From contig JAIOJX010000032.1 of NCBI GenBank assembly GCA_022376925.1, positions 172,695,979 to 172,759,978 on the forward strand: a stretch of 64,000 nucleotides of DNA. The letters are read 5' to 3'. This document shows positions 1 through 50,285 of this stretch, one piece after another. Source of the stretch: Tragulus kanchil (lineage: Eukaryota; Chordata; Mammalia; Artiodactyla; Tragulidae). Below the pieces are notes generated by a model. That model was not told the DNA's origin, made no database searches, and worked only from the letters and a program-made list of their open reading frames with translations. Within the stretch, counting starts at the first letter, position 1. Every line of letters starts with the position of its first letter. The translations under genes and the position numbers were made by a program.

Positions 1-1467
1 CAAAATTTCCCATTTTTGTGTATTCTCCTCAATGGGTTCATACCCTGTAACAGTATCAATAGAGTGTTTATGTCCCTTGGGGTCCAAAAATGAAGCTTTT
101 TTAATTTAAATTAAAATTACAATGCTTAAGTGGAACATTAAACTTTTCTGAAAATGAGTGAAATGCTTTTCATTTCTTTTCTCCTAATAAATCCAGTCAT
201 GCTGAAATGGATTAATCATAACTGAATTTCTACCAACTTTAAATGTTAGAAATGGATGAATCCTAACTGAATTTCTAATAATTTTAAATCATTAGTCAAT
301 GCATGGCCCTCTTTGCATTGTTCATACATGTGGCCATTTATTCCTCCAAAAGATCTCAGTGGATATCCACGACCAAGCCCCTAAGGACTATAAATTATAC
401 AACTATTTTTAAATAAGACACACAACCAGAAACTCACCTCTTCATACACTTTTAAAGGATGAGCAACCTCAGTCTAGCTTATTGAACTCAAATTGTCAGA
501 AGTGTATTAACAATACTGGGTTCGTAAGCTCCTTTCCTAGGTGAGTAAGGTGCAACCCTCCTCTTTGTTTATACTTCATTTATTCATGCATTGATTTACT
601 TATAATAATGCCATCCATATTCATGAACAAAAGGTCAAGAACCAAATCCTTGAGTATTTCCGACTTCCTCTGTAAGCACATTTCCCAAAGATGCAACAGA
701 CCTCAGAGTTACAGAGTGGGTTTAATCAAAATCGTCATCAGATGCCCCACGCACACTCATCACTGATCCATACTCGGTATTCTGTGCCTTGCTTGGAAAT
801 GTTGTTCTTGATTTATTCACTGATAATAATGCAGTGTTCACGAATTAGGAAAGTAACACCAAGATGCTTGAAGATGCAACTATGTCTGGGAAAGCTCACT
901 TTCCTACAGAGCTAGAGAAGTAGCTCTCTTTGCACAATGTATTCCAGCACCGAAAATATGAATTAATCCACTTTTTTGCATCATATCAGTTCTTATTAGC
1001 CACTGACCCATGGTTCAGGTTCTTTCATTTAACATCCATACAATGAAATTTCATTTTAATACCACGACTCATAAAAAGGCAAAATTTCCCATTTTTGTGT
1101 ATTCTCCTCAATGGGTTCATACCCTGTAACAGTATCAATAGAGTGTTTATGTCCCTTGGGGTCCAAAAATGAAGCTTTTTTAATTTAAATTAAAATTACA
1201 ATGCTTAAGTGGAACATTAAACTTTTCTGAAAATGAGTGAAATGCTTTTCATTTCTTTTCTCCTAATAAATCCAGTCATGCTGAAATGGATTAATCATAA
1301 CTGAATTTCTACCAACTTTAAATGTTAGAAATGGATGAATCCTAACTGAATTTCTAATAATTTTAAATCATTAGTCAATGCATGGCCCTCTTTGCATTGT
1401 TCATACATGTGGCCATTTATTCCTCCAAAAGATCTCAGTGGATATCCACGACCAAGCCCCTAAGGAG
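1..1467 (+). repeat. direct duplication 1, period 1081
   Basis: 1-386 reappears at 1082-1467; the left copy is cut by the window edge. Confidence 0.95.
698..770 (-). ncRNA. SNORD113: box C/D snoRNA, SNORD113-like, boxes intact
   Basis: On the minus strand the C box is GUGAUGA (complement of 757-763), D' is CUGA (738-741) and D is CUGA (703-706). UUGAUUA between D' and D serves as C'. The ends (UGGAUC and GGUCU) can pair as a short terminal stem. Length is about 73 nt, normal for the family, and the GGGGCAU before D' and the UGAUUAAACCC segment are family traits. SNORD113/114 members are orphan snoRNAs with no known rRNA target. Only one copy is present in the window, between duplicated blocks. 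Confidence 0.85.
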
Positions 1468-1489
1468 AACATGAACTTTTATTACTTAC

Positions 1490-1576
1490 ATTCATTTCTT
1501 CTCTCTTAATCCAAACAGTTAAAAGTCAAAATCTTCACCATCACCGAATAAGCCAGTCTGGTAGAATGCATTCATT
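1490..1576 (-). ncRNA. predicted MEG8 exon between snoRNA units
   Basis: Minus strand: acceptor TTTTTACTGCTCAG then AATGAATGC, and donor GAAT/GTAAGTAAT after 87 nt. The exon body GGTGAAGAT is shared with the other exons of the array. There is no conserved reading frame, consistent with a non-coding host transcript. Confidence 0.6.
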
Positions 1577-2815
1577 CTGAGCAGTAAAAAGCAAATTTTA
1601 AAAAGAATCAGCCTAAAATTACCCATTTTAAATAATCAATAATTAGGTAACCATAACCCTTGGCTTGCATTCTATTTTCAACATTTGGAAAGAACTCTAT
1701 CTATATTAACTTGTGCTATTTTTTATTTTATAAAATACAATGGACACCAGTGAATCTAGCAGTAAACAGAAGAAAAATAACTACAATTATTAAGAATATG
1801 GCCTCTACATATTGCCCATAAAGGGCTAAGATCTTTTTTTTTTACTGAAGTTTCATTGTGTGGCATTGGATCCATGGGAGAGTCAGCTCATGGCACAATC
1901 TTCCCAGAGGTCAAAGCTTGACCCTATTTAATATATTCATTAATTCACTCACTAATTCCTTTATTAATTACTCATGGAAGATTAAGACCATTCCTTTATT
2001 TTTCTAAAAGAATTTGAAAAAGTTTAAACAACCATCAAAACAGAACTGAAATCCTGTTAGTTACAAAAGCCTATGCTTACTCTTCCCACAGACAACAGGT
2101 GTGTAAAACACGATGACACAGGACCTTTCCATCCACCTGCGTGCCCTCCGCTGATGCACTGCTGGCGGACTTTTTCAAAAACTGACTTGAGATACACGTG
2201 TACACATTTGCTTACTTATAATTATACCTCAATATCTGTGACCCAACCACACTGGGTAAGTACCTTAAATGATATTTACATTTCTCTTTATGTCATTATC
2301 CAAAAGAATGGCAAACTGGTTCTTTGTCTGTATGCAACATAAAATTGCATAAAAAGACTGAATTAACCACAAATGCAGTTGAATAAAACAGTCTCAATGC
2401 TGGTCCATGTTCTCCCTCTGAATTACTCAGTTTACTCAATCAACTATTTATGTAAATGTATTTCTCATTCCTTAGTAAAGTGATCAATTGGCAACATGCC
2501 TCCACACAAAACAAAAACACTGTTTTGTGGGCAGATGACCATCTGCTCCTTACAGAAATGACAAGAGCCTTGACTATTAATTTATGGGGACTAAGAATCT
2601 AAAAAAATAGTTTTCATGATTATCAATGCTTCATTACATGCCTTAAAAGTAGTACACATATATCTCTTAATACTTGTTACTGATATATTTCTCTGTTCAC
2701 AGGCTAAATTAATGTTCATAATGCTATTCATACTCCAAACCAAAAAGCCTGAGAATAAGGTATGGTATGGCAGGTTCATTTCCCACAAAGAGAGCAAAGA
2801 GATGCCTCTTTGTTA
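1577..2815. repeat. diverged array units without usable snoRNA
   Basis: Contains at least three weak unit remnants (around 1600-1690, 1860-1930 and 2340-2410) recognised by GGTCCATG or TTGGCTTGC spacer words and TTTATT-type stretches. No intact C/D pair is present. Confidence 0.45.
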
Positions 2816-2886
2816 TGGACCTTAGTTGCAGATGGGCTTAATCAAAATTCTTATTTAAGAAACCCCATGAAATTTATCACTGATCC
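2816..2886 (-). pseudogene. degraded SNORD113-like snoRNA
   Basis: The full-length SNORD113-like pattern is recognisable (UUGAUUAAGCCC, UUUCAUGGGGUUU), but the C box is GUGAUAA and the D box CUAA. Both k-turn elements carry a change that should impair 15.5K protein binding. Confidence 0.7.
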
Positions 2887-3293
2887 CTGCAAGGAAATTT
2901 CTTTTCACTTGTAGATTAATTTTCTGAGGCACAAAAAATAACACATTCACAAAATGCTAAAAACAAGACTCTTGAATGTTAAGCTCTCACCCTATAGAGC
3001 TAATAAAACAACATTACTTCTGCAGTGGAACTCAAAGCTATACATGTGGATAAGTCAAAATCCCTGTTTTCTATCAAACCAATATTCAGCATTACTTCCT
3101 GTGCGGTCCTCTATGATTCAATTCATTCATATGTCAAAAATAGTTCCATGAAAACCTAATGAAACCACCATCTGTAATACCTCTCGACCGCCCAAACTGA
3201 GTGATCTGCTCTCTCCCCACATGCAGAGGGAGAAATCAACCATGGTAGAAAGTAGAAGATAATATTACATTAAATCACTGCTATCTTTTAAAG

Positions 3294-3362
3294 GGACCTC
3301 AGCTGTGCTGATTTCACTTAAACACAATTTGGGGCTTGTAACACATCCCCATCACTGGTCTA
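3294..3362 (-). pseudogene. SNORD114-like unit with altered C box
   Basis: The D box CUGA is intact (3299-3302), but the C box is GUGAUGG. The terminal stem AGACC/GGUCC is preserved. It belongs to the second subtype (AGCACAGCUGAGG at the 3' end). A duplicate with the same change is at 4428-4496. Borderline between functional and decayed. Confidence 0.6.
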
Positions 3363-3976: not shown

Positions 3977-5503
3977 TAAGTATGGGGTCACTTAATAGAT
4001 TATTGACTAAGATGAACACTTTTCCTTTTCTTAATTAAGAAAAAGATTAAAATTTTTCTGAGGGCACAAAAAATAACACATTCACAAAATGCTAAAAACA
4101 AGACTCTTGAATGTTAAGCTCTCACCCTATAGAGCTAATAAAACAACATTACTTCTGCAGTGGAACTCAAAGCTATACATGTGGATAAGTCAAAATCCCT
4201 GTTTTCTATCAAACCAATATTCAGCATTACTTCCTGTGCGGTCCTCTATGATTCAATTCATTCATATGTCAAAAATAGTTCCATGAAAACCTAATGAAAC
4301 CACCATCTGTAATACCTCTCGACCGCCCAAACTGAGTGATCTGCTCTCTCCCCACATGCAGAGGGAGAAATCAACCATGGTAGAAAGTAGAAGATAATAT
4401 TACATTAAATCACTGCTATCTTTTAAAGGGACCTCAGCTGTGCTGATTTCACTTAAACACAATTTGGGGCTTGTAACACATCCCCATCACTGGTCTACAC
4501 TGCACATGTTTTATGTATTTCGTGTATGTAGTACATAATTATTACTCTGGAAGTCTTCAGCTAACACTCATGAATAGACTATTCAAACAAAGAATGCGAA
4601 CCAAGGGACTTACTTATATTAGACTTTATGCTGTTTGCTCACAATAAAAATTCTTTATTAAGTGATTAAATCAGATGTCCTATGTTCACTCTGGGGAGGA
4701 AAAAGTGATTTAGGATAGATTTGATTTTTTTTTAATGAATGTTAGGCAGGAAGAGCTAGATAACTATAAACTTTGGATCAAAATGCAATTTTTTACTAAT
4801 CCAGTATTGAATTCTTAGTTATGAATAATATAATAAACATTACTAAGTCTACCACCAAGCCCCAGATTAAGATCTGTAATGATTACAAATGTCCATCTGT
4901 TAAGCATATAGTTAGTAAAGTCACTCAGTCATGTACGAATCTTTGAGACTGCATGGACTGTAGCCCACCAGGCTCCCCTGTCCATGGGATTCTCCAGGCT
5001 AGAATACTTGAGTGGATTGCCATGCCCTTCCCAACCCAAGGACTGAACATGGGTCTCCTGCATTTTAGGTGAATCCTTTACTGTGTGAGCCACCAGGGAA
5101 ATCCCTAAGTATGGGGTCACTTAATAGATTATTGACTAAGATGAACACTTTTCCTTTTCTTAATTAAAAAAAAAAGCATATTACTAAAATTCAAAACATT
5201 GTCTCCTGACTATAGATACTAATATGCTCCACGTGAAAGAGGATGACAGACTAAAACTGTTCGTCTCACTTTGGGATTGTATTAGTATTAATGCTTATTG
5301 TATTGCATGCTACTAATTACTCCAGAAGCAGGTGTCTTCATTATTCAGATGTACAGTTCTTTTGGTATTCATGCAGCGATTCACGTGCAGTAACACAGTC
5401 CATTCACATGGAGCACAGAAGCGCAAGAAAAACTTTATTGCCTTTTCCTAATTTCTACTACTACTTAATTTCTACAGACCATTGATTGATTCTCTGCGCA
5501 TAA

Positions 5504-5580
5504 TGTGGCTTAGAGTTACACAGAGAGCTTAATCAACATTATTGACTCAGGTACTTCCACCAATACCCATCGCTGATCCA
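5504..5580 (-). pseudogene. degraded SNORD113-like snoRNA
   Basis: The body matches the family closely (AACUCUAAG, UUGAUUAAGCU), but the D box is CUAA and the C box GCGAUGG. Confidence 0.65.
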
Positions 5581-6366: not shown

Positions 6367-6420
6367 CTATAAAGGAGAAAAAATCTATTATTAAAAACTA
6401 TAAAAATACAATTAGCTTTT

Positions 6421-6761: not shown

Positions 6762-7132
6762 TTGATATGCATTAGAAGGACTAGATGAATCATAAACTCT
6801 ACTTTATATCACATTCTCATTTTCCCTAAGAAGGGCTCTCTTTTGTTTCCTTACTTAAATCTGACTGTGAAATAATATGGAAATCCCTGCTCAACACAAA
6901 ATTAAAACTGCAATTAGAGATATCTGACTTTACTTGCTGCTTACACAGGGAGAGCCAAGATCATCGTTCGGACTTCTGTGGAACTGGATGTATTTTTTTC
7001 ATGGGACAATCTCACCAGTCCTCCACTATATGCATTTATGGATTCACTCACTTATCACTTACTGATTTATTTTGTGATTCAGGGAATAATATTATCATGT
7101 CATCATTTTTCTAAAGAGAACTCAAAATGGTT
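6762..7132. repeat. diverged array units
   Basis: Two weak SNORD114-like remnants: one at about 6770-6830 (AATCATAAACTC, ATCACATTCTCAT) and one at about 6969-7022. Neither has both boxes. Confidence 0.4.
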
Positions 7133-7263: not shown

Positions 7264-7946
7264 CAAAACACGTGTTTTGAATTGATTTGTGGTTTGCTGA
7301 TTTTTTGAAAGTAGACTGAGATATAAACTTATAACCTCTTCTTCTTGTACAAATATGTCAGTATCTGTGAACCCATCCACTAGACAAGAGCACTGAACAA
7401 AATTTATGACTATCTATAGGCACTGTCATTGAGAAAAATAGACTTGCTTCTTTTTTACTGTTTTAATAAAAATCAATGAAAAAAGGATTGGGTTAATCAG
7501 AAGTGTCTTATAAAACATTCTCAGCACTGGTCTCTCACTTTCAATCATGTGGTTATTTAAACAAGAATTTATACAAGTTAATACATTTCCTTAATATAAC
7601 AACCAAACAGAACTGTTATATGGCAACACAGCACCAACACAGAACAAGAACTGTTATACACAGGTGTGTGTATATATATGTATATACACTTCTTCCCACA
7701 GCAGTAAGAGACTCTACTGTTAATATAAACAGTCTCAGTTAGGTTTTAATAATAATCCATGTTCCATTATATTCCTTAATAATAGGTACATGGCATCATA
7801 TTTTTAAATTTATTGATATATTTTATTTATTTATGGGTCCACATTATAATAAAAATACGATTCATTCCCAAGAACAGAAGTACAAACACAGGATACCACG
7901 GACTTCTGTCTCAAAGAGGGAATAATATAACCACGTGTCTTTGTAA

Positions 7947-8020
7947 CGGACCTCAGAATCACTTATGGGTTTAATCAAAACTCCTGTTTCAGATACCCCA
8001 TGGAACTCATCATTGATCCA
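7947..8020 (-). ncRNA. SNORD113: box C/D snoRNA, SNORD113-like, boxes intact (copy 1 of 3)
   Basis: Minus-strand C box AUGAUGA (8007-8013), D' CUGA (7989-7992), D CUGA (7953-7956), with UUGAUUA as C'. The terminal UGGAUC and GGUCCG can pair. The segment before D' reads UUCCAUGGGGUAU, which would be the D' guide. It is the best-preserved snoRNA in the window. Two further copies at 9029 and 10152 are identical across the snoRNA and arise from overlapping 1.1 kb duplications, so probably one gene is present. Confidence 0.9.
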
Positions 8021-9102: not shown

Positions 9103-9361
9103 GACACGTTTTTCTTCCTGCATTTACTTATTAATTGGTCCATGAACAACAAAACAATCATAAAATTCCAGGAATAAAATCTCCTTTTGTAATGGACCTC
9201 AGGGAACATGTGTGAGCAATTAATATCCATACTTCATACCAAATCCACATTCACCATTGATCCGTCTGGGTGTTTCTTTAATGGAACTGCCCATGTTTTA
9301 AAGACTGAGGCTCAATGAAGAGTGATGAAACCACCATATTTAATCACTTCTCAAGCAGAGT

Positions 9362-9535: not shown

Positions 9536-9590
9536 AATGTAATACTAAATAGTTCTAAAAATGAATAAAATGACTACTCTTCTTTTTAAT

Positions 9591-9650
9591 TGCCTCAGTC
9601 GTGCTGAATTAAACAATGTTTGATTCATACCATATTCCCATCACTGGCCC
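9591..9650 (-). pseudogene. shortened SNORD114-like snoRNA
   Basis: Only 60 nt, about 10 shorter than its relatives. D box CUGA is present and the C box is GUGAUGG. A Bov-A SINE lies directly left. The duplicate is at 10714-10773. Confidence 0.55.
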
Positions 9651-9760
9651 ATATTTGAGATTTGTAATTCCTGTGTAGACGCTGACTCTTTCAGAAATAC
9701 CACTAAATATTTGTGAACAAATCATCCTATCCAAAGACAGGAAATTCAAGTCTTACTTAC

Positions 9761-15629: not shown

Positions 15630-16014
15630 AATGGAAGCAACAAGTCAAAAAAAGAACAAAAACATAAAACCTGTTTTCCATCAATTGCAACATGGACTCT
15701 TACATGAAACTGTCTTTTGTTTCTTACTCAAAAATGTAAGAGCTTTGATCTATTTCATTTCATTGGAACTCAGCATAAGTCTGAGTTCCAACTGTGTTAG
15801 TCTTGTTCCTTATTTAATTACATACTCTCCTAATTTGGTCCATTCAGGGCCTTCCTTGTCTTCATTCATTTACGTGTTTTACTCATGGATGATTTACTTC
15901 AAATATAATCTGTATTCAAGAACCTCAACAGACCAAGAACAAGAACAGGCACTCCCTCACTTCTGCTATATGATCATTTCCCACAGAGATAATAGGTTAA
16001 TATTCTTTTTTTAA

Positions 16015-16085
16015 TAGATCTCAGAGCTATAAAGCTTAATCTGAATTCCAGATTCAGATATCCCAGGACACTCATCATTGGTCTA
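16015..16085 (-). ncRNA. SNORD113: box C/D snoRNA, SNORD113-like, boxes intact (copy 1 of 2)
   Basis: C box AUGAUGA (16072-16078), D' CUGA (16054-16057) and D CUGA (16021-16024) on the minus strand. The ends UAGACC and GAUCUA pair with one mismatch. C' is weaker (AGAUUA). The segment before D' is GUCCUGGGAUAU, different from the 7947 snoRNA, so any D' guide is not shared. It is the first intact unit to the right of the L1 insertion. The duplicate is at 17156. Confidence 0.87.
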
Positions 16086-18850: not shown

Positions 18851-19325
18851 CTTTACCTTCTTCAAAATAACTGGTTGAAAGATGAATGTATTCGTACATT
18901 CACTCCTAATATCATCAAATACCCTTGAACACAGAAACTGGATCAGAAATCTGAATGGTGTAAGAGTTGCTCATGTAGTCATTACTTCCAAACGTAGCCA
19001 ATTAGATCACATCTTCTTATTTTCAGTAAGTAGCCAGCACTTATCAAACCATGCAGAACAACACTGATTCCCAGGTGTTTATCTCTGTATGCTATTTAAT
19101 CCAAATAGATTTATGTTGGGACTGAGTACTTCAGAGATAATAAAAATATATTAAACGTTCTTATAATTGGGCCACATATGGCTTTCCTTTTCATTGATAT
19201 ATATTATATACATATAGTCACTCACTCATTAATTCACTTCTAATTATACAATCCAAATCTATGAATATAGTTGAAGAACAAAATCCTGATTCTTAACTTC
19301 TACCACATAGGCATTAACTAGGTCT

Positions 19326-19392
19326 CTGACCTCAGTGCTACAGAGCTTAGCCAAAACCATTGGTTCACAGCATTTCAGATATTCATTGGTTC
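19326..19392 (-). pseudogene. degraded snoRNA unit
   Basis: The 3' half (CUGUAGCACUGAGGUC) is well kept with D box CUGA. The C box has become AUGAAUA. Duplicate at about 20404-20470. Confidence 0.55.
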
Positions 19393-20779
19393 AAACTTTA
19401 TCAGTCATGCCTACCTTTGTTTACTGATCTCCTCATTAAGTCATTAATAATAATAAAGTCAAGGTGTATAAACCAAAATCCCCCAAAACATACCCTAGAA
19501 TATTATGAAGATCTATCTATAGTGTTATTTTCCATAAAACTAAGTGGCTTTGGTTTTTTCCAGCCTATCACAGCATTACGATACAGATTATCAGCTTATT
19601 TGCTTCCTTCCAATCCCATGTTTACACTTTATCTATGCTTGTCCTTCTTTCACTTACATTTCCCTTTTTAAAGATGGAACATATGGTAGCCAGCCTCTAT
19701 CAGCTTATCTGTTCCCTTAGTGGTCCTCAACAGGAGCCATATTATCCGCAGAGGACGTTGGCCACTGCTGAACTATTTTTGCTTGTCCCACTGGGAGACG
19801 AGTGTCCGTCTAGTGGCACCTAGTTAGTAGAAGTCAGTGCAGTCTCCATGGTCTACAGTGTAGGGGACAGCCCCACATCAGTGAATCATCCAGCCAAAAA
19901 GCCACTAAAGCAAAGCTGAGACATCCCACTTTACCTTCTTCAAAATAACTGGTTGAAAGATGAATGTATTCGTACATTCACTCCTAATATCATCAAATAC
20001 CCTTGAACACAGAAACTGGATCAGAAATCTGAATGGTGTAAGAGTTGCTCATGTAGTCATTACTTCCAAACGTAGCCAATTAGATCACATCTTCTTATTT
20101 TCAGTAAGTAGCCAGCACTTATCAAACCATGCAGAACAACACTGATTCCCAGGTGTTTATCTCTGTATGCTATTTAATCCAAATAGATTTATGTTGGGAC
20201 TGAGTACTTCAGAGATAATAAAAATATATTAAACGTTCTTATAATTGGGCCACATATGGCTTTCCTTTTCATTGATATATATTATATACATATAGTCACT
20301 CACTCATTAATTCACTTCTAATTATACAATCCAAATCTATGAATATAGTTGAAGAACAAAATCCTGATTCTTAACTTCTACCACATAGGCATTAACTAGG
20401 TCTCTGACCTCAGTGCTACAGAGCTTAGCCAAAACCATTGGTTCACAGCATTTCAGATATTCATTGGTTCAAACTTTATCAGTCATGCCTACCTTTGTTT
20501 ACTGATCTCCTCATTAAGTCATTAATAATAATAAAGTCAAGGTGTATAAACCAAAATCCCCCAAAACATACCCTAGAATATTATGAAGATCTATCTATAG
20601 TGTTATTTTCCATAAAACTAAGTGGCTTTGGTTTTTTCCAGCCTATCACAGCATTACGATACAGATTATCAGCTTATTTGCTTCCTTCCAATCCCATGTT
20701 TACACTTTATCTATGCTTGTCCTTCTTTCACTTACATTTCCCCTTTTCTAAAGATGGAACATATGGTAGCCAGCCTCTG

Positions 20780-23057: not shown

Positions 23058-23120
23058 CTGTGATGTGAGACACACATTTTTACAGAGAATGGAATAGGAT
23101 AAATCTAACCTTTTTAAAAA

Positions 23121-23187
23121 TGAACTGGAGTCTTGAGATGCTAGATTAATCATAAATCTTAGTTTTATCACATTCTCATTATTGACT
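23121..23187 (-). pseudogene. degraded SNORD114-like snoRNA
   Basis: UUAUGAUUAAUCUAG marks the subtype. The C box is AUAAUGA (23176-23182) and the D box is lost. A duplicate lies about 1170 bases to the right. Confidence 0.55.
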
Positions 23188-25072
23188 GACTTTTTATATA
23201 CCGACTTGTTTACTGTTTAGTTTTTAATAAACGTTGCAAATGCTGTTGAACCTACCACCCGCCACAAGAAAAACTAATGTAACTGGCATGATATTGCTCT
23301 ATATACTCCCTAACCACTCAGCTCACAGCCTTGTTCATCTCTTTTAAAGGACCACCTGCATGCACTGTTTAGAGTATGCTGTGAAATATGGTGAAAGATT
23401 TACCCTCATTTTTTCCCACTGACTCTTATTCTTTCTTATTTGAATACTCAAAGAATAATTTGATGAGTTTTTTTTTTCTCATCTAAAATGGTTTTATCAT
23501 TACCTTTGTTTCATCACACCTGCTCCTCACTGACCCACGTACTACTTTTGTTTAAATAATTGACCAAAATATGAGCTCATTCATTTATTCACTTTTAACG
23601 ACACATTCAAAAAGAATGCAAGTCAGGACCCTAAAAGAGAATATTGACTAATTCTAGATTCCATCCATACACTCACTATCCACAGATAAAATGTACCATC
23701 TATAACTTTGAAAATTTGAAGTGACACCCATAAACCAGCCTCCCAACCCAAGGACATAAATTCTGTCATGTACATCATTCTCTTCTGTCCTTATGCACCA
23801 AATTTATAAAAGCCAAGATCTTTAGCATTAGATGATGATTAAATCATCTGTAGTATGTTCACTTGGTGAAAATGCAGACTTCCCAAAACAAAACATAGTG
23901 GGTGGAAGAGCACCTGAAGGAAAATGGCACCTCACTCCAGTGTGCTTGCTGGGAAACCCCCATGGGGGGGGAGCTCCAGTCCACAGGGTCCAAAGAGTCA
24001 GCCACAGCTGAGACTGAGCATAGCACACGCCATTTGATGACTTCATTTATGGGTAGAGGATTTTTTCCTTTGACATAATGTCAAGATGAACAAATCAACT
24101 TCACCAAGGACATGACTTTTGACTACTAGACTACTATCTACTGGAATCTCTCGACACCTTACTCACAGGTAAAAACTAAGACCTTGTATGACTATTGAAT
24201 AATTAAACCAGCCATAGTGCTTCCATTCTGTGATGTGAGACACACATTTTACAGAGAATGGAATAGGATAAATCTAACCTTTTTAAAAATGAACTGGAGT
24301 CTTGAGATGCTAGATTAATCATAAATCTTAGTTTTATCACATTCTCATTATTGACTGACTTTTTATATACCGACTTGTTTACTGTTTAGTTTTTAATAAA
24401 CGTTGCAAATGCTGTTGAACCTACCACCCGCCACAAGAAAAACTAATGTAACTGGCATGATATTGCTCTATATACTCCCTAACCACTCAGCTCACAGCCT
24501 TGTTCATCTCTTTTAAAGGACCACCTGCATGCACTGTTTAGAGTATGCTGTGAAATATGGTGAAAGATTTACCCTCATTTTTTCCCACTGACTCTTATTC
24601 TTTCTTATTTGAATACTCAAAGAATAATTTGATGAGTTTTTTTTTTCTCATCTAAAATGGTTTTATCATTACCTTTGTTTCATCACACCTGCTCCTCACT
24701 GACCCACGTACTACTTTTGTTTAAATAATTGACCAAAATATGAGCTCATTCATTTATTCACTTTTAACGACACATTCAAAAAGAATGCAAGTCAGGACCC
24801 TAAAAGAGAATATTGACTAATTCTAGATTCCATCCATACACTCACTATCCACAGATAAAATGTACCATCTATAACTTTGAAAATTTGAAGTGACACCCAT
24901 AAACCAGCCTCCCAACCCAAGGACATAAATTCTGTCATGTACATCATTCTCTTCTGTCCTTATGCACCAAATTTATAAAAGCCAAGATCTTTAGCATTAG
25001 ATGATGATTAAATCATCTGTAGTATGTTCACTTGGTGAAAATGCAGACTTCCCAAAAAAAAGAGCCTATAAT

Positions 25073-26455: not shown

Positions 26456-28418
26456 TTAAGTAATACAATGAACACCAATATGAGAATAAGAACCTTTATC
26501 TATCATGAATATGTATCTACACACTCCCTAAATACATTTAACAGCTTGGTGATTGCTTATAATGAATCTCACTTGTGTAACACTGGTTAAATGGAAATCT
26601 TTGTTTCATGGCATATCCTCACCAACTTGCACAACTGGTCCTGAGTTCTATGTCTAGTGATTCATTTATTGATTTTTGTTTATAATTAGGCATGAAATAA
26701 ATTATTTATACATTTTCTAAAGAATTTCTCCATGTAAATTTCTATCTGTATTTTAGCCAAAGTGGGATGAGTTCTCCTCCTTTATCTTGATACTATTTTT
26801 ATACATCAGGAATAAGCATTACCTCTGGTTCCTGACACATTTCCTCCCTGGTCCTTCTTTGGCCTTCATCTGAATGACTATTCTATAGATAAAATGCATT
26901 CCTTCATTCTTTTATAACAGCATATCATTAACAGTGAGAACCAAGGCACTGTGTAAGAGCTGTGAACATCCTCCTCATGATTATAATTATTAATATTATA
27001 TAATAATATGATAAAACGCCATGAATAGAGTTAATCTTAACTCTGATCATATGATATAGTCTCAATACAGGTTCAACTTTGGCTGGCTCAGCATAAAACA
27101 GCTATGTAAGCAACTCTTTATGTGAACTGTTTTGCTCTTTTCTAACTAAAACAGCAAAACCAGCAATGAAAGCAGCCACCTGGACTCTTAGGTAAGTGCC
27201 CTGTGGAAAGAGTTGGAACTTTAACCCTATGCAACCACAGAACTCTGTGCTTCAGACAGGTTCTAGCCGAGAAATACTCCATTGTATATATGTACCAGAG
27301 CTTTTGTATCCATTCATTTGTCGATGGACAACTAGGTTGCTTCCATGTTCTAGCTATTGTATAGAGAGCTGCAATGAACATTGGGGTACAGGTGCTTCTT
27401 TCAGTTTTGATTTCATCAGAGTATAAGCCTAAGAGTAGGATTGCTGGGTCCTAGGGAGCTTCTATTTTTAGTTTTTTAAGGAATCTCCATACTGTCTTCC
27501 ATAACGGCTTTATCAATTTACACTCCCACCAGCAATGCAAGAGTGTTCCCTTTTCTCCGCACCCTCTCCAGCATTTATTGTCTGTAGATTTTTTGATGAT
27601 GGCCATTCTGACTGTATTTAAGTAATACAATGAACACCAATATGAGAATAAGAACCTTTATCTATCATGAATATGTATCTACACACTCCCTAAATACATT
27701 TAACAGCTTGGTGATTGCTTATAATGAATCTCACTTGTGTAACACTGGTTAAATGGAAATCTTTGTTTCATGGCATATCCTCACCAACTTGCACAACTGG
27801 TCCTGAGTTCTATGTCTAGTGATTCATTTATTGATTTTTGTTTATAATTAGGCATGAAATAAATTATTTATACATTTTCTAAAGAATTTCTCCATGTAAA
27901 TTTCTATCTGTATTTTAGCCAAAGTGGGATGAGTTCTCCTCCTTTATCTTGATACTATTTTTATACATCAGGAATAAGCATTACCTCTGGTTCCTGACAC
28001 ATTTCCTCCCTGGTCCTTCTTTGGCCTTCATCTGAATGACTATTCTATAGATAAAATGCATTCCTTCATTCTTTTATAACAGCATATCATTAACAGTGAG
28101 AACCAAGGCACTGTGTAAGAGCTGTGAACATCCTCCTCATGATTATAATTATTAATATTATATAATAATATGATAAAACGCCATGAATAGAGTTAATCTT
28201 AACTCTGATCATATGATATAGTCTCAATACAGGTTCAACTTTGGCTGGCTCAGCATAAAACAGCTATGTAAGCAACTCTTTATGTGAACTGTTTTGCTCT
28301 TTTCTAACTAAAACAGCAAAACCAGCAATGAAAGCAGCCACCTGGACTCTTAGGTAAGTGCCCCTGTGGAAAGATTTGGAACTTTAACCCTATGCAACCA
28401 CAGAACTCTGTGCTTCAG
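26095..28418 (+). repeat. direct duplication 11, period 1162
   Basis: Copies 26095-27256 and 27257-28418. Clean joint in CTTCAGACAGG. Confidence 0.95.
26456..27256. repeat. diverged array units
   Basis: Two SNORD114-like remnants (26570-26642 and about 27020-27085) with the family spacer. Boxes are destroyed. All of it is duplicated to the right. Confidence 0.4.
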
Positions 28419-29157
28419 ACGCTCCCCTGGTGATAATCTTTGTTTTATTACATAATTCCATAATTGGTCTCTGTTTGGCTTTCCTTATCTTCATTCATTT
28501 ACATACTTATTTATCCATTCAAAAGTTCATTTCCCAAAGAGTTTACCTATGCCTTTTTCTCAACAGGCCACTAATTTTGAGATAGGAATTAATTACAGTT
28601 CGAGATTCAAACCTAACCCCACTCTAGGCATCAACGCTAATCCAAACTCAGCACATTTTTGCTTCAGTCCTTTACCCTTTCGCGTACTGATTCATCCACT
28701 AGCCCAATAGTAACACAATCCCTACTTTATAAAGTACAAAATCTTGAAAATACGATCCTTGAATGTTAAAAAGATCTACCTCAGTTGCTCATTTCCCACT
28801 GAACTAATAACACTACATCTCCTTTGGCAAAGACCCTCAATGTGGACATACGCACTCCCTCCCACTGAGATCTTTTGAAGGGAAAATGTTGATATCAACC
28901 ATCATATAAACACAAAAGAATAGCACGCATCTCTGAAAATGTGGGAAACACCTTCTGAATTTTGGGAGAAGTCACCAGTCATGCAGAATTGAATTAGACA
29001 TCATTGCCCATGGTTCATTCTGGTCACTGGTACTGTATAGTGTTCTTTTATACTTTTATGAAATTTTTTTTGAAATATTTCTGTTTTTGAAATATTTCAA
29101 TGAGCACAAATGCACAAATACCCCTAACCAAGAACATAAACTTTGAATGTTACCCAC
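28419..29157. repeat. diverged array units
   Basis: Unit remnants at about 28425-28490 (CATAATTGGTCT) and 28975-29040 (CAGTCATGCAGAATTGAATTA). The words CCACAGAG and AACCCAAGAAC of the spacer recur. Confidence 0.4.
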
Positions 29158-29227: not shown

Positions 29228-29885
29228 CTGAGGTGAAAAGCAGGCTTTAAAAATAATGAAAAATCATGAACTTTGGTGTGTTTAGAGGATACTAATTGCA
29301 GAGTTCTAGATTTGCTCGATCATCTAATTTTCATGTTAAGCTATATAATGAACACCACAGAATCCACAGTCTAACCCACAAGTCAGGGCTTTAAAGTCAG
29401 ATTTCCGCTTTGATGAATCTTTCTTGTGCAATTCAGATAAATTCTAATCTTCGTTTTTCATGGCCCAAGCTTGACTCGTATTTATGTATTCATTCACTCA
29501 CTCATTCATTCATTCACTTAATTACTCGGGGAACAAGTTCACCAGCTGCTCATTATATAAAGAAAACAGAAAATGCTCATATGGGCAGCAACCCAGACAC
29601 AAAATACTGTTCTGCACATCTAGTTATGTGCACATTATGCAAAACAGGAAAAACCTAGATTTTTTTTTTTAAGTATGAAAATCAACCGTGTAGAACACGA
29701 TAATCACGATGCTTATTCCACAATAGAGCGCCTCATTGATGTGCCACTTCCGTCTTTTAAGTAAAATACGAATCTACTCATTTACTAACAGCAATATATA
29801 ATTATAACATGTCACTATTATAATTATAACTCACTGGACAAAAACTTTCCAATAATCTTAACATGTGATCATGTTCACAGTCAAC
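29228..29885. repeat. diverged array units
   Basis: One SNORD114-like remnant at about 29412-29475 with a TTCATTCATTCA spacer. The rest is AT-rich without recognisable elements. Confidence 0.35.
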
Positions 29886-29940
29886 CACCTTAAAATTAAT
29901 CATAACTCTTGTTATAGAACTTATTCTCATCACTGGTCCA
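29886..29940 (-). pseudogene. 5' half of a SNORD114-like snoRNA, D box lost
   Basis: The C box GUGAUGA (29927-29933) and UGGACC start are perfect, but the end carrying the D box has decayed. The second copy (about 30882-30936) is a chimera: its left part comes from another unit and the joint lies in the shared ATTAATCAT. Confidence 0.6.
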
Positions 29941-30356
29941 GGATTTTCATTCTAATGGATATTTAACTATTTGTACAAACATTTGGTCCTTTCCTTAACA
30001 AAATAAACCACTGGCAACCCACAATCAGTCCATCGAGCCATCATAACAGTAGTCTGTCTTGGGCACCCTTGTCTATTTCCTCCACGCTGAAAGAGGCAGA
30101 ACCTTGATAGACTGATTTTCCTAGACCTCGGTGCTTCAGAAATATTTGAAAACATAGTCTTATAATTGAACAATGTATGGCTTTCCTGTCTTCATGCCTT
30201 CCATCCTGTCTTTCTTTACTCAAACATTATTTCAGCTTATCATAAGTGAAGAAAATCCATACCCAAGCAACACATAGCTTAAGAATAGAGTCCTGAATAT
30301 CGCCTTCTTCTGCCACAAGCACCTTTACCTAGAGGGAATAACTAGATCTCTTATAA

Positions 30357-30426
30357 TGACCTCAGAGCTACAGAATTTAATCAGAATGTTTAAGTTAGAC
30401 AGTCCAAGATACTCATCATGGATCCA
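30357..30426 (-). ncRNA. SNORD113: box C/D snoRNA, SNORD113-like, boxes intact (copy 1 of 2)
   Basis: C box AUGAUGA (30413-30419) and D box CUGA (30362-30365) are perfect. The internal D' has drifted to CUAA, while the C'-like UGAUUA is retained. The terminal stem is imperfect. It could still assemble as a C/D RNP with a single guide position next to D. The duplicate is at 31353. Confidence 0.82.
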
Positions 30427-31352
30427 GACTCGGCATTTTTACCTTCTTTGTTCATATCATCCCTTCTGGATCCTTTTTACATGTACAAATTAGAATACAA
30501 CCAATAACCATGAGTAATAAATGTCAAGAACAAGATGAATGACCATTTCTAAGGTAAGTCCATTTTCACTTGTCCCACTGAATATATTTAAGGTCTTTGT
30601 TTGATGAACCTCTGTGTTGCACAAATAGATTAATCAACAGGTGTGCTGCACAGCAGCACTATATCGATAACAGGTTTTTGATTATCTCTTTACCTCATCT
30701 GTCCATGTTGTAAAGATGGTAGAATAAAAATCTATGAGGTGCCATTTTCACTCACAACTAAAACAAAGCAACTCTCCTCCTCCGTCCTCCGTCCTCAACA
30801 AGTAAATGATCTTGATCTTCATCAAGGACTGGATGGGTAACTATACTTGGGAGTCACACTAAAATGGAAAATGTTGTGGCCCTAGAAATTATTAATCATA
30901 ACTCTTGTTATAGAACTTATTCTCATCACTGGTCCAGGATTTTCATTCTAATGGATATTTAACTATTTGTACAAACATTTGGTCCTTTCCTTAACAAAAT
31001 AAACCACTGGCAACCCACAATCAGTCCATCGAGCCATCATAACAGTAGTCTGTCTTGGGCACCCTTGTCTATTTCCTCCACGCTGAAAGAGGCAGAACCT
31101 TGATAGACTGATTTTCCTAGACCTCGGTGCTTCAGAAATATTTGAAAACATAGTCTTATAATTGAACAATGTATGGCTTTCCTGTCTTCATGCCTTCCAT
31201 CCTGTCTTTCTTTACTCAAACATTATTTCAGCTTATCATAAGTGAAGAAAATCCATACCCAAGCAACACATAGCTTAAGAATAGAGTCCTGAATATCGCC
31301 TTCTTCTGCCACAAGCACCTTTACCTAGAGGGAATAACTAGATCTCTTATAA

Positions 31353-34145: not shown

Positions 34146-34306
34146 CCCTTTGGTCTTCATTCACTTCCACCTTTATTTATTCATGCTTGCATTCAGTGAT
34201 TCATTTACATCAATGCACACCATAATGAAGAATCATTAAGACCCAAGAACAGATCCCCAGTTGGCTCTGAATCTCTTCTCTAAAAGGGGAAAACCCCTTT
34301 TTCTAA

Positions 34307-34375
34307 TGGACCTCAGAGTTAGGGTGTAATCAAAATTTATGATTCATATACCCCAGAACTCTCATCACTGATCCA
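34307..34375 (-). ncRNA. SNORD113: box C/D snoRNA, SNORD113-like, boxes intact (copy 1 of 2)
   Basis: C box GUGAUGA (34362-34368) and D box CUGA (34313-34316). The terminal UGGAUC and GGUCCA pair well. D' is degenerate (AUGAA), while UUGAUUA is present as C'. Length is 69 nt, slightly short because of a small deletion in the segment before D. The duplicate is at 35293. Confidence 0.86.
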
Positions 34376-34991: not shown

Positions 34992-35292
34992 TATATAGCT
35001 TCCTCTGATTTTATGTCTGCAATAGCCACTCACTCCTTTGAAACAATCCCAGGGACATATTACCCACAGAAATAAATGACTGTATCATTCTCCACCAACT
35101 TAGGATGCCACCATGGACACCCACATGCGATCCCTTTGGTCTTCATTCACTTCCACCTTTATTTATTCATGCTTGCATTCAGTGATTCATTTACATCAAT
35201 GCACACCATAATGAAGAATCATTAAGACCCAAGAACAGATCCCCAGTTGGCTCTGAATCTCTTCTCTAAAAGGGGAAAACCCCTTTTTCTAA

Positions 35293-36160: not shown

Positions 36161-36216
36161 CTGTGGAGTAAAATACAGAATTTACAAAGTTGAAGAGGCA
36201 GTGTGGATATTTTTAA

Positions 36217-36276
36217 GAGACCTTAGTCTTGCTATAACAGATTTATCATAATATCTTCTTCTCATCACATTTAAGT
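36217..36276 (-). pseudogene. SNORD114-like unit, C box intact, terminal stem lost
   Basis: The C box GUGAUGA (36262-36268) is perfect. The D box is CUAA and the 5' stem half is replaced by AAAU. Confidence 0.5.
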
Positions 36277-36946
36277 AGCCCAAGAATGACTCTCTTTTTA
36301 TCTTTTAAATTATTAATGCATGTAATAAGATGGCAACTGCTATCTCTACATCCTAGTAGAATAATTAAGAACTATGTCTGTTCCAAATTCTTTCTATCAA
36401 ACCTTAACCACAGAGTTAAGAGATCACGTGTCCTTCTTCATAGGTCCTCCTGTGATTTGAATCAGGTAAATTTACATCATTGTCTCTTCATATACTGTCA
36501 CCATAGTTGACCTTAACTTATGACTTCATTCATTATTTTTTAATTTACTCAAGGAATTATTTGTCCATTTTTGAAACAAATACAAAGTCATCTAAAACAC
36601 TAATAGTGTTTTAGATAGACTGATAGATAAATAGATGGATACACATATAGATTTAGATTATACAGCTATCTCTATGACTCTACCTAAAGTGAGCATAGCC
36701 AAATCCCTTTTATTTGTATGGACATCACAAGAGTACATCGAGATTAGTAAATAATTTTTAGTGACACAATATGCACACAGGTCCACGTCTAGCCTCTTTT
36801 AAATAACCTCTTCCTTCATTATCTAACCATACTATCACCTACATATCCCAGGCAAGAGTCTGCAATAACGCTAACATCTGTCCTTAAACGCAATACCCAC
36901 AAAATAACAACTAAATGTATTTTTCAAAAATGATACTGGTTGAAGG
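36277..36946. repeat. diverged array spacer, no recognisable gene
   Basis: AT-rich. A weak unit lies near 36440-36520, and there is a GATA-rich stretch at 36615-36660. Nothing else was recognised. Confidence 0.3.
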
Positions 36947-37639: not shown

Positions 37640-37916
37640 TGTCCATAGGTTCTTGATCAACAACTTAAACATCCTGGACCCTTTTCTTATTGGAATTCAA
37701 CTCCACTGAAATGTTTTGAGAATAATCGGTATCTCATTATGCACTCTCATTGCCAATAGATGTCTCATTCTCTTTGTCTTCATTAAATAATATGTTTATT
37801 TACTCATTACTGATTCAATAATAAAAGTATCTGTATCTAAGATCTATTGAAGCCTGAATTCCTAACTTCACCACAATCTCGTACCCCACGAAAACAGGAA
37901 ATCAGATTTATTCCTA

Positions 37917-37987
37917 CAATCCTCAGAGTTATAGGAGTTAATCAAAATCCTTGGCTTGAACACCTCAGAGTACTCATCAATGACCTA
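37917..37987 (-). ncRNA. SNORD113: box C/D snoRNA, SNORD113-like, C box slightly off consensus
   Basis: Minus-strand D box CUGA (37923-37926) and an internal CUGA (37965-37968). The C box is UUGAUGA (37974-37980), off consensus only at its first base. UUGAUUA serves as C'. The terminal stem is weak. Single copy, just left of a duplicated block. It may be functional or recently decaying. Confidence 0.7.
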
Positions 37988-42472: not shown

Positions 42473-43006
42473 CAGTAATATATGTATCTATAATAGGCAT
42501 GGATATTTAAGGTACTTAAATCTTTGCAATTCTTGCCCATAAATTCTTACTTCAAATTGAAATTACTTTCAATTGTACAGAAATGTATTAATATAAATAT
42601 CTGGTTCATGATATACTTTCTTCTTCGGCCTGGTTTAATTCTGTATATACATTGACAATCAGTTACATGTGGTGTATGTTCCTCACCAACAAATGTAAGA
42701 GACTTGTTACTTATGGACGAGAGTTACTATTAATATGTTAATTACAAATGTCGGTACATGTCCTGTTCTCTTCTTTGCATCATGTATTCCTTATGTTTTA
42801 AATACTTTCATAATACATTGGATATCTGCAAAACCACTATTCAACTACAACCTTAACAATAACTTTTTGATACTCTCTCACCAAAATAGGTCTTCAACAT
42901 TAGAGAAATAGTCACATAAACTTTGGGTCATGCAAGCAAAATAATACTTAATAGTGGATAAATGAGTAAGTCTTGTGAATCACAGTTTTTGCCAGTGAAT
43001 CTCATT

Positions 43007-43074
43007 CGTGCAGAACTGAATCAATTATAATCTTTTCTGCATGGTACATTTTCATCTCTGGCCCATAATTAACC
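43007..43074 (-). pseudogene. SNORD114-like relic (three copies)
   Basis: The body (CAGUUCUGCACGA) resembles SNORD114. The C box is GAGAUGA and the D box AUGA. Further copies lie near 44074 and 45168 because of overlapping duplications. Confidence 0.5.
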
Positions 43075-46215: not shown

Positions 46216-46422
46216 CATTTACTTACTTACGAACATTCTTGAGCCACTGTCTAGCTCAAGATTTAAGAACATCGACTACTACATTTTATTTGCCTTGTCC
46301 TTATCCACCTGAGAGTCAAAATTCTCACAAATACTGCACAATTAAAACCACTGTGGTGTGTCCATTTTATGCAAAAGAAAGCAACTGTTAAAAAAGAATG
46401 AACAGCCTGAATCATTTTTAAT

Positions 46423-46490
46423 GAGTCTCACTTGTGTAGAATTGAATTTATCAGCCTTAGTTTACGAAACAGTATCCTCATTGGTCTGCG
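46423..46490 (-). pseudogene. SNORD114-like relic
   Basis: The AAUUCUACACAAGUGAGACUC end matches the subtype, but the D box is GUGA and the C box has a deletion. A duplicate lies 1111 bases to the right. Confidence 0.45.
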
Positions 46491-47685
46491 CTTTGTCCTT
46501 TTTAATTTTATTTATCCCTTTAAAAAGCCATAAGGATACCCATGAATCTGACCCAAAACATAATAAGCTATCAATTCTTTACATTTCTATGTGCATCTCT
46601 CACTGAGTCAATGGTCTAAACCTCATCAATAGGAAAATGTTTCTATAAACCACAGTGCATAAATTAATAGCAGAATATTATTAAAATAAGTGAAATACCC
46701 TAATATCTTTCTTTTACTATCCTTCCAGTTTGCAGAACTGTATAATCACACTTCGTGGGTCATGATACATCTTTAATCCATGTTTAACTCTCTTTGATTT
46801 TACTAATACAAGCATCCATTTCTTTAATAAATCTATAAACATTAAAATACATCAAAGACTAAAATAGTTATATAGCGTAAGTACATGACCTTTGAAATAT
46901 AAGACAGTTGGTAAAAGGAATGAAGCCTGCTAGACGATCTTTATGGCAGACAAGAGCCCAACATTCAACACACCATCATGTCAAACAAGAATACTGAATA
47001 ACTACCCTGCTCCTTAACCAACACATACTTTTAATGGACCTTGGATGTACAGAATTACTGTTGCTGTTTTAGTGCCTAAGTTTTGTTTGACTGTTTGGCA
47101 ACCCATGGACTGTAGCCTGCTAGGTTCCTCTGTCCTCGAGACTTCCCCGGTAAAATACCGGAGTGGGTTGCCATGCCCTTCTTCAGAGGATCTTCCCAAC
47201 CCAGGGATCGAACTCACATATCCTGCATGGGCAGGCAGATTCTTTACCACTCCACCAGGGAAGCGCTGTGTACAGAATTAAAATACTTTTAATTCTAGAA
47301 TATTGAAACATTATTGGCTCACGATTCATTTACTTACTTACGAACATTCTTGAGCCACTGTCTAGCTCAAGATTTAAGAACATCGACTACTACATTTTAT
47401 TTGCCTTGTCCTTATCCACCTGAGAGTCAAAATTCTCACAAATACTGCACAATTAAAACCACTGTGGTGTGTCCATTTTATGCAAAAGAAAGCAACTGTT
47501 AAAAAAGAATGAACAGCCTGAATCATTTTTAATGAGTCTCACTTGTGTAGAATTGAATTTATCAGCCTTAGTTTACGAAACAGTATCCTCATTGGTCTGC
47601 GCTTTGTCCTTTTTAATTTTATTTATCCCTTTAAAAAGCCATAAGGATACCCATGAATCTGACCCAAAACATAATAAGCTATCAA

Positions 47686-49805
47686 TTCTTTACATTTCTA
47701 TGTGCATCTCTCACTGAGTCAATGGTCTAAACCTCATCAATAGGAAAATGTTTCTATAAACCACAGTGCATAAATTAATAGCAGAATATTATTAAAATAA
47801 GTGAAATACCCTAATATCTTTCTTTTACTATCCTTCCAGTTTGCAGAACTGTATAATCACACTTCGTGGGTCATGATACATCTTTAATCCATGTTTAACT
47901 CTCTTTGATTTTACTAATACAAGCATCCATTTCTTTTTAATAAATCTATAAACATATAAGAACATACTATTCATCACAAGACTAAGAAAGAATAACTATT
48001 ATATTTAGTTTATATATGAATTATTAATGTATAATAGAATGATACATAGACATACATAAAATTAACATAATGATCCATACATAAGTATTTGTTTTTATTT
48101 GCTCAACTCCCACATGGAGGATAGCCCCGTTACATTATTTTTTAATTTGGTGACAGGCCAAATGAGACATGTCATCCTGGGTTCATGAGAGCATCTCATC
48201 ACTGGTCTGAGTTTGGCCATCTTGGATTTTGTTTATGCCCATCCATGTTCCACAGCGCACCTGCACCCATCCACCAGCGCCCAACCATAAAACAGCAGCA
48301 CTCACCGTCGCTCGCGGAGCTTGGTCTCTGGCTCAGTCCCCACAGAGGCCACAGCCCAGACCTCCATCGACAGCGCCAGCTGGCCTGCCCTGGGCCTCCA
48401 CGCTGTGGAACACAAGGCAGATATTACAGAGGACGAAAGCACCTAGCTACTCTAACAGCCACGAGCTGAGCAGCCCAGAATTCATCCCAATCTTTGGTCC
48501 CTGACAGAATCTCTGCATTGGCCCAAGAACAGCTCTCCTTGTACATATTTTTCCATTTAATAATTGTATGTATTACAATAAACATGCATGAACTCACCAC
48601 CCTAATTGAAAGCAAGAATGACTGTTACAAGCATGTGTCTCTAGGCTTCTCCTCACAGAAGAACCAGCCCAGATCTTCTTCCTAATGGACTCAGCTACGC
48701 AGAACTGCGATAATCATCATCTTTGATTCCAGATATAGTATCATTTTCTTTACATTTCTATGTGCATCTCTCACTGAGTCAATGGTCTAAACCTCATCAA
48801 TAGGAAAATGTTTCTATAAACCACAGTGCATAAATTAATAGCAGAATATTATTAAAATAAGTGAAATACCCTAATATCTTTCTTTTACTATCCTTCCAGT
48901 TTGCAGAACTGTATAATCACACTTCGTGGGTCATGATACATCTTTAATCCATGTTTAACTCTCTTTGATTTTACTAATACAAGCATCCATTTCTTTTTAA
49001 TAAATCTATAAACATATAAGAACATACTATTCATCACAAGACTAAGAAAGAATAACTATTATATTTAGTTTATATATGAATTATTAATGTATAATAGAAT
49101 GATACATAGACATACATAAAATTAACATAATGATCCATACATAAGTATTTGTTTTTATTTGCTCAACTCCCACATGGAGGATAGCCCCGTTACATTATTT
49201 TTTAATTTGGTGACAGGCCAAATGAGACATGTCATCCTGGGTTCATGAGAGCATCTCATCACTGGTCTGAGTTTGGCCATCTTGGATTTTGTTTATGCCC
49301 ATCCATGTTCCACAGCGCACCTGCACCCATCCACCAGCGCCCAACCATAAAACAGCAGCACTCACCGTCGCTCGCGGAGCTTGGTCTCTGGCTCAGTCCC
49401 CACAGAGGCCACAGCCCAGACCTCCATCGACAGCGCCAGCTGGCCTGCCCTGGGCCTCCACGCTGTGGAACACAAGGCAGATATTACAGAGGACGAAAGC
49501 ACCTAGCTACTCTAACAGCCACGAGCTGAGCAGCCCAGAATTCATCCCAATCTTTGGTCCCTGACAGAATCTCTGCATTGGCCCAAGAACAGCTCTCCTT
49601 GTACATATTTTTCCATTTAATAATTGTATGTATTACAATAAACATGCATGAACTCACCACCCTAATTGAAAGCAAGAATGACTGTTACAAGCATGTGTCT
49701 CTAGGCTTCTCCTCACAGAAGAACCAGCCCAGATCTTCTTCCTAATGGACTCAGCTACGCAGAACTGCGATAATCATCATCTTTGATTCCAGATATAGTA
49801 TCATC
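47686..49805 (+). repeat. direct duplication 20, period 1060
   Basis: Copies 47686-48744 and 48746-49805. Confidence 0.95.
48145..48208 (-). pseudogene. SNORD114-like relic with perfect C box
   Basis: C box GUGAUGA (48196-48202) lies behind a CAGACC start. No D box is recognisable at the other end. Duplicate 1060 bases to the right, with its C box at 49256-49262. Confidence 0.5.
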
Positions 49806-49811
49806 CTTGGT
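49743..49811 (-). pseudogene. SNORD114-like relic with intact D box
   Basis: The 3' end (CAGUUCUGCGUAGCUGAGUCC) is close to the family, with D box CUGA. The C box is shifted by an indel (GGAUGAU). A left copy begins at 48683 and is cut off at about 48743 by the duplication joint. Confidence 0.55.
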
Positions 49812-50217
49812 TCCTAGTTGTCCTTTTTATTTTTACTTATTTTTTGAAATACAATGAAACACACATGAGCTCAGCACTAATCCAAACAAAAATATCGCTT
49901 AGTCCTTACAGACCAATGCTTCTTATCCACAGAGGTAAGAGCTCTGGCTTTGCGGTTTTACATAGTCCACGATTGTATATAGATGGATTCATCTTAAGCC
50001 AAAATCCATAAAACATGCCCTTCGGTGGCCCACTTTGGCTCTCTTTCATCTTGTCCTGTCTTTTATTTACTCATCTAATTCACTTCTAATAATACATGAG
50101 AAACACCTGAAGCCACATTCAGCCCCAGGCCAGAGACGGTTCAGCTACCTGGTAAGGTGCCTCCCACTCACAGTCCCAACAGCCTAGAACTCGCTGGGTG
50201 TTTGTTTTGTTATTTTT

Positions 50218-50285
50218 AATAACTACTGTTGGGCTGAACTGAATTACACATAACGCTTGTTTGAAAACACATTGTCATCCGTCCT
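50218..50285 (-). pseudogene. first unit of the array downstream of miR-370, degraded
   Basis: The subtype signature CAGUUCAGCCC is visible, followed on the plus strand by the standard spacer (CTTGGCTCTCTTTAATT). The C box is GGAUGAC and the D box is gone. It marks the array boundary, since no unit is recognisable to its right. Confidence 0.5.

Follow-up and report, generated by a model that had tools for sequence, protein, structure and literature searches.

The window analysed here is a 64,000-nucleotide stretch of the Tragulus kanchil assembly (contig JAIOJX010000032.1), located at 172.70-172.76 Mb of a 297-Mb sequence in a genome of 3.17 Gb held in 32 sequences, and its first 50,285 bases carry an array of box C/D small nucleolar RNA (snoRNA) units on the minus strand. 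Two further features of the locus were placed by Rfam beside the array:

51291..51365, minus: mir-370 precursor (Rfam RF00740, 101.3 bits)
57024..57087, minus: MEG8 exon 3 (MEG8_3; Rfam RF02147, 43 bits against a cut-off of 40)

Past the high end of the window Rfam identified MEG8 exon 1 (twice), SNORD112 (93.1 bits) and MEG8 exon 2 (twice), giving on the minus strand the order MEG8 exon 1, SNORD112, exon 2, exon 3, mir-370 and the snoRNA array. A single unit in the searched stretches, between MEG8 exons 1 and 2, passes the SNORD112 cut-off, and the units matching the SNORD113/114 family (RF00181) sit in MEG8, 3' of mir-370, the position by which membership of that family is judged. Because the Rfam matches and this synteny all lie on one strand, we place the window with high confidence in the imprinted DLK1-DIO3 domain, as the 5' part of the minus-strand region that hosts the MEG8 (Rian) snoRNAs; the same confidence extends to the assembly artefact described below, which is part of this explanation. 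The first-pass annotation had proposed MEG8 in DLK1-DIO3, and the one-strand succession of MEG8 exons 1 to 3, SNORD112, mir-370 and the array supports it. Rfam matches continue for about 70 kb of raw sequence beyond the window start, many of them outscoring every match in the window, and the genome-wide list of such matches is a lower bound.

Exact matching uncovered 23 adjacent duplications of about 1.1 kb in the window, 21 complete and two cut by the window ends. The complete ones have offsets of 986-1194, with 982-1117 matches and 0-12 differences (none in ten). Six of the 21 abut without a real spacer and 15 have one; when these 15 spacers were compared with 200 random places (p<=0.05), 12 matched the sequence beyond copy 2 and nine the sequence before copy 1, seven matching both sides and one (20704) neither. 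With 14 of 15 matching at least one side, the spacers are as expected if sequence ends that overlap had been joined but left unmerged. Three examples, one inside and two outside the array, are:

47686..49804: false tandem duplication lying within the array, with 47686-48744 identical to 48746-49804 (1059/1059)
52569..54683: false tandem duplication beyond the array, the copies agreeing at 1034 positions and differing at 2; the 44 nt of spacer match both the sequence beyond copy 2 and that before copy 1
58662..60847: false tandem duplication outside the array (1066/1066 identical)

Eleven control stretches of 10 kb, taken at round-number positions on nine other or distant sequences, all carried duplications (28 events in 110 kb, some cut at the ends; two of the stretches hold some N), and MEG8 exons 1 and 2 are themselves doubled in this way. 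The recurrence at about 1.1 kb is thus an assembly artefact, assembly-wide and repeated every few kilobases, and its presence in 11 of 11 stretches elsewhere suggests an inflation of the assembly by about a quarter, as a very rough figure. Collapsing the duplications reduced the window from 64,000 to 39,936 bases, the array from 50,285 to 28,937 and the whole 139,978-base region to 88,866 (46 events). The "recurring spacers and exons" reported by the first-pass annotation do not survive this treatment, the recurrence being that of the 23 near-exact duplications; the similarity left after collapse is that of snoRNA units to one another and of apparent dispersed repeats to one another, and no host exon repeated with each unit was found among it. 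Copy counts, tandem repeats and gene-family sizes taken from this assembly are accordingly suspect or inflated, as illustrated by the 51 Rfam SNORD113/114 rows at or above the cut-off over 140 kb, which collapse to 32 distinct units; under a lax test, 22 of these 32 carry words for both the C box and the D box.

At the gathering cut-off Rfam returned 11 rows in the window, all on the minus strand: mir-370, MEG8_3 and nine SNORD113 rows, which represent five distinct units after collapse, the other candidates in the window falling below the RF00181 cut-off. Rows below the cut-off added more SNORD113 and also SNORD112 matches, again on the minus strand only. A covariance model built from an alignment of 12 distinct units (R2) gave 103 rows over the window at E<=10 when false copies are counted, 88 of them minus and 15 plus; every one of the 71 rows of at least 11.6 bits was on the minus strand, the top plus-strand row reaching 10.7 bits. 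A hidden Markov model (HMM) of the same 12 units, applied to the collapsed array at a threshold of 8 bits, detected 27 minus-strand matches (12 of them the training units). It found none on the plus strand or in the reversed sequence, and 20 dinucleotide shuffles yielded 0.1 on average and never more than 1. R2, applied to nine of the 11 control stretches from elsewhere in the genome (90 kb), found no match there at E<=1. A second model (R3) was trained on 15 weak units or units of the decayed kind termed type II below, and its top plus-strand row reached 14.0 bits; R2 and R3 combined gave 51 distinct candidates, one unplaceable row having been dropped, and the weakest of these are doubtful. 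The diverged, one-orientation array that had been recognised on the minus strand, with more than 25 distinct units, is therefore confirmed: the Rfam search then suggested recovers five distinct units at its cut-off, R2 and the HMM many more, and the proposed end at 50285 is where a weak unit (50218-50285) stops.

A tree of 43 units of about 70 nt, midpoint-rooted and leaving 28 other window candidates outside it, separated three groups. Thirteen SNORD114-like units, all drawn from beyond the low end of the window, grouped with support 0.99, and ten SNORD113-like units (type I), eight of them in the window, with support 0.85; 15 window units (type II) form, with SNORD112 itself and four units located beyond the window, a further group split off with support 0.87. 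A C box, a D box and a terminal stem of 4-5 pairs were found together in six window units, all of type I (696, 7946, 16014, 30355, 34306 and 37916), while one or both box words were absent from 34 of the 40 distinct candidates examined. The window thus appears to hold at least two kinds of unit, eight SNORD113-like ones, the majority with boxes retained, and no fewer than 15 that are decayed and SNORD112-like. Because type II units remain below the RF01169 cut-off of 58 bits (45.1 bits for the top window unit), they are classed as SNORD112-like relics and not as SNORD112. The SNORD113/114 label originally given to the array is qualified by the 15 decayed units, which group in the tree with SNORD112. 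The units are listed below, where "flank" is the result of the flank test described after the list, "LOO" its leave-one-out form and "stem" the number of terminal stem pairs out of five.

696..770, minus: type I (SNORD113-like), exact C and D boxes, stem 5/5; RF00181 43.4 bits; own flank not above null
2815..2887, minus: type I by tree, degenerate boxes GTGATAA and CTAA; R2 70.3 bits, training unit; TGGGGTT upstream of D'; Rfam best family SNORD112, 26.2 bits
3025..3099, minus: diverged unit, false copy at 4160; R2 25.5 bits; flank supported
3292..3362, minus: type II (SNORD112-like), C box GTGATGG, D box CTGA, false copy at 4427; R2 33.5 bits; flank LOO supported; tree
5505..5580, minus: type I, degenerate boxes GCGATGG and CTAA; Rfam 38.0 bits
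6093..6163, minus: type II relic; R2 39.0 bits; flank LOO supported; tree
6765..6828, minus: relic outside the tree set; R3 27.3 bits; flank supported
7468..7534, minus: type II relic, false copy at 8552; R2 28.8 bits; flank not supported
7946..8020, minus: type I, exact C and D boxes, stem 5/5, false copies at 9028 and 10151; Rfam 45.9 bits
8110..8182, minus: diverged unit, false copies at 9192 and 10315; R2 26.6 bits; flank supported
9588..9651, minus: type II, C box GTGATGG, D box CTGA, false copy at 10711; R2 35.6 bits; flank LOO supported; tree
16014..16085, minus: type I, exact C and D boxes, stem 4/5, false copy at 17155; Rfam 33.8 bits, under the cut-off of 36
19325..19393, minus: diverged unit outside the tree set, false copy at 20403; R2 26.0 bits; flank not supported
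23120..23189, minus: type II relic, false copy at 24289; R2 16.7 bits; flank LOO not supported; tree
23462..23537, minus: relic, SNORD112-like by Rfam, outside the tree set, false copy at 24631; RF01169 29.1 bits, under the cut-off of 58; flank borderline
26562..26642, minus: type II relic, false copy at 27724; R2 19.3 bits; flank LOO supported; tree
28400..28471, minus: relic outside the tree set; R3 23.6 bits; flank p=0.0003
28970..29034, minus: relic outside the tree set; R3 31.4 bits; flank supported
29871..29940, minus: type II unit; Rfam, R2, tree; the Rfam row 30875-30936 is a chimera of this unit spanning a duplication junction
30355..30426, minus: type I, exact C and D boxes, stem 4/5, false copy at 31351; Rfam 39.0 bits
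32178..32247, minus: type II relic, false copy at 33308; R2 17.1 bits; flank LOO supported; tree
34306..34375, minus: type I, exact C and D boxes, stem 5/5, best SNORD113 match in the window, false copy at 35292; Rfam 55.3 bits
34920..34991, minus: type II, false copy at 35909; RF01169 45.1 bits, under the cut-off of 58; tree
36216..36282, minus: relic outside the tree set; R3 20.2 bits; flank p=0.0007
37916..37987, minus: type I, C box TTGATGA (first base off the RTGATGA consensus), D box CTGA, stem 4/5; Rfam 32.8 bits, under the cut-off of 36
42994..43065, minus: type II, false copies at 44059 and 45154; RF01169 38.4 bits, under the cut-off of 58; tree
46421..46488, minus: type II relic, false copy at 47532; R2 16.8 bits; flank LOO supported; tree
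48461..48525, minus: type II relic, false copy at 49521; R2 19.3 bits; flank LOO supported; tree
49744..49814, minus: type II, false copy at 48684 crossing a junction; RF01169 32.5 bits, under the cut-off of 58; tree
49962..50032, minus: type II relic; R2 23.3 bits; flank LOO not supported; tree
50218..50285, minus: type II relic, most upstream listed unit; R2 14.4 bits, extended by R3 to 50218-50299 (35.3 bits); flank p=0.0003; tree

Flanking sequence played no part in choosing the units. Over 40 units, the 20-30 bases upstream and the first eight downstream were more informative than random positions, and a flank matrix derived from 23 training units was applied to 26 held-out candidates (49 of the 51 candidates in all). 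The 95% point was exceeded by 17 of the 26 when the null was the whole collapsed sequence and by 13 under a stricter null taken next to units; 18 of the 23 training units passed by leave-one-out against either null. Because many flanks are unremarkable, the list of 51 is too generous, and we put the array at 27 distinct units or more, with 31 to 35 supported by both unit and flank and 51 as the upper list. On the minus strand, many units have in common an A-rich stretch immediately before them (e.g. 50286-50320); it ends with the word GCCAA in 7 of 41 rows, of which one is misplaced, compared with 1.1% of random 17-mers. This shared upstream stretch suggests that the repeat ancestral to the units probably extended beyond the snoRNA itself.

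Several observations weigh against this account of the array. No more than five distinct window units reach the Rfam SNORD113 cut-off, and every SNORD112-family row in the window stays under 58 bits. Half of the held-out candidates (13 of 26) have ordinary flanks under the stricter null, and five of the 23 training units fail the flank test, the box-intact unit 696 among them. Mean identity to SNORD112 does not separate the kinds (0.71 for type II and 0.70 for type I, with 0.68 for SNORD114-like units), the tree supports come from 70-nt units and a midpoint-rooted tree with long type II branches, and the eight type I units folded singly were inconsistently stable relative to shuffled sequences (z from -2.2 to 1.7).

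These points have to be weighed with the alternatives. If the repeats of about 1.1 kb were real, recent tandem duplication or gene conversion would be expanding the snoRNA array; such arrays do arise by tandem growth, and 21 complete pairs with 0-12 differences per kilobase or so, ten of them identical and six abutting, could be read in that way. We consider this extremely improbable, however, since the same duplications occur outside the array (52569 and 58662), in every stretch sampled elsewhere and over MEG8 exons 1 and 2, and since nearly all spacers match sequence flanking the copies, as unmerged overlapping ends would. That the weak type II units might instead be chance matches of an over-fitted model in AT-rich DNA agrees with Rfam leaving most of them unlisted and placing all those listed below the cut-off, with the training of R3 on type II or weak units and with the failure of half of the held-out candidates in the stricter flank test. 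R2, trained with only four type II units, nevertheless found the others on one strand only, the controls (plus strand and reversed sequence for the HMM and, for R2, nine stretches elsewhere in the genome) were empty, and flanks unused in selection are common to many units, so that chance seems a very unlikely source of these matches.

The relationship of the type II units is less firmly settled, and their being decayed SNORD113/114 copies rather than relatives of SNORD112 is unlikely but deserves serious consideration. The families are all related to one another, mean identity is the same (0.66) between type II and type I as within type II, type I resembles SNORD112 about as closely as type II does, and the type I unit 2815 also has SNORD112 as its best Rfam family. 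Conversely, all 15 type II units in the tree split, with SNORD112, from type I and the SNORD114-like units, and SNORD112 is the best Rfam family of four type II units and one junction chimera among the rows listed. We tentatively propose, as a scenario less likely than not, that an ancient tandem array of SNORD112-like units was later covered by expansions, first SNORD113-like and then SNORD114-like; SNORD112 would be the best-kept copy of the ancient array, and at least 15 decayed units in the window would be its fossils. If this layered history is true, imprinted snoRNA loci would as a rule undergo repeated array turnover instead of conserving individual guides. A covariance-model cut-off reveals only a small part of such an imprinted array, and a decayed, possibly older layer may sit among the intact units.

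A SNORD113/114-family unit (52.6 bits) was also encountered far from the locus, on the plus strand of C7:155001-165000, where it appears three times (3076, 4247 and 5377) through false duplication. Unit and 3' flank together (162 nt) share 92% identity with part of the array, and the unit abuts what we take to be the 3' end of an L1 element.

Homology, orientation, order of the locus, decay and the doubling of sequence are described above; transcription and processing are suggested by analogy with the known locus, where a maternally expressed transcript carries snoRNAs in its introns (PMC2756960, PMC10754522). The array would be transcribed within the maternally expressed MEG8 RNA. Once trimmed from the MEG8 introns, the few intact units would associate with the C/D proteins, fibrillarin among them, and would use the stretches preceding D and D' to direct 2'-O-methylation or to bind targets in some other way; the decayed units would serve as inert spacer. 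Nearly all the snoRNAs of the known locus are orphans, SNORD113-6 being reported as a guide of tRNA-Leu(TAA) 2'-O-methylation at the site AACCCCA, with a fall in methylation on knock-down that was only a trend (p 0.07 and 0.10; PMC9547152), and a 2025 preprint lists apparent mRNA targets of SNORD113/114 with no change in rRNA (PMC12724518). Before D', TGGGG occurs in five of ten type I units and TGGGGT in four, and six of seven bases of the tRNA site would pair with the latter. A role as tRNA-Leu(TAA) guide is a lead only, weakened by the sole unit with all seven bases (2815) having broken boxes and by the published knock-down effect being a trend. An internal stem between the D' guide and the region after C' (TGGGG with CCCA), noticed by eye in some type I units, was rejected, as cognate arms paired no better than shuffled ones (10 units, p=0.47).

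Elsewhere in the window, CpG-richer stretches at 58001-58750 and 61501-62500 (observed/expected up to 0.79) lie in the 5' part of MEG8 and are possibly the counterpart of the MEG8-DMR. A weak mir-1188 match on the minus strand at 59405-59490, with a copy at 60525-60610 (25.1 bits against a cut-off of 106), may represent a diverged orthologue of mir-1188, which in the mouse is located in the DLK1-DIO3 region. The weak Rfam rows for mir-297, mir-1277 and mir-3149 sit on (AT)n stretches far below their cut-offs; other rows likewise far below the cut-off, MIR166 (44703, 45799 and 46910), mir-6827 and SCARNA7, lie off those stretches. At its far end, the searched region carries an H/ACA snoRNA match (SNORA79, 76.8 bits; L009 6936-7081), again on the same strand. 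The designation "ruminant" rests on sequence words in the window that we take to be SINE- and BovB-like, and the gaps within the array are probably L1 and SINE insertions, judging from words presumed to be theirs and not from a repeat search. A mir-370 pattern searched in viral and genome contigs for related host DNA gave no match in either.

The locus, its snoRNA families and the cattle array are already known, and it is the SNORD112-like relics and the assembly-wide duplication that are worth noting; a cursory search of the open-access literature, including the available part of PMC3349704, found no account of such a relic layer. Human 14q32 MEG8 is reported to hold nine SNORD113 and 31 SNORD114 copies (PMC12724518), and the array described here shares with the human ones its locus, orientation, neighbours (SNORD112, mir-370 and MEG8 exons), C/D architecture and terminal stem, differing in that the window holds mostly decayed units and that copy counts are inflated by the assembly. 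C/D snoRNAs hosted by MEG8 have been reported on cattle chromosome 21 (PMC2756960), the same locus by description, not by sequence comparison, whereas the unit-by-unit anatomy and the relics described here are not given in the available part of that report. Type II units fall on the SNORD112 side of the tree, and SNORD112 is the best Rfam family of those listed, but they differ from SNORD112 itself in forming a decayed multi-copy layer below it. Lastly, the doubling resembles the false segmental duplications of PMC2864568, in that unmerged overlapping ends of neighbours make a unique region appear twice; that work, in its available part, treats haplotype differences between separate contigs, whereas in this window near-identical copies of about 1.1 kb recur every few kilobases without Ns between them.

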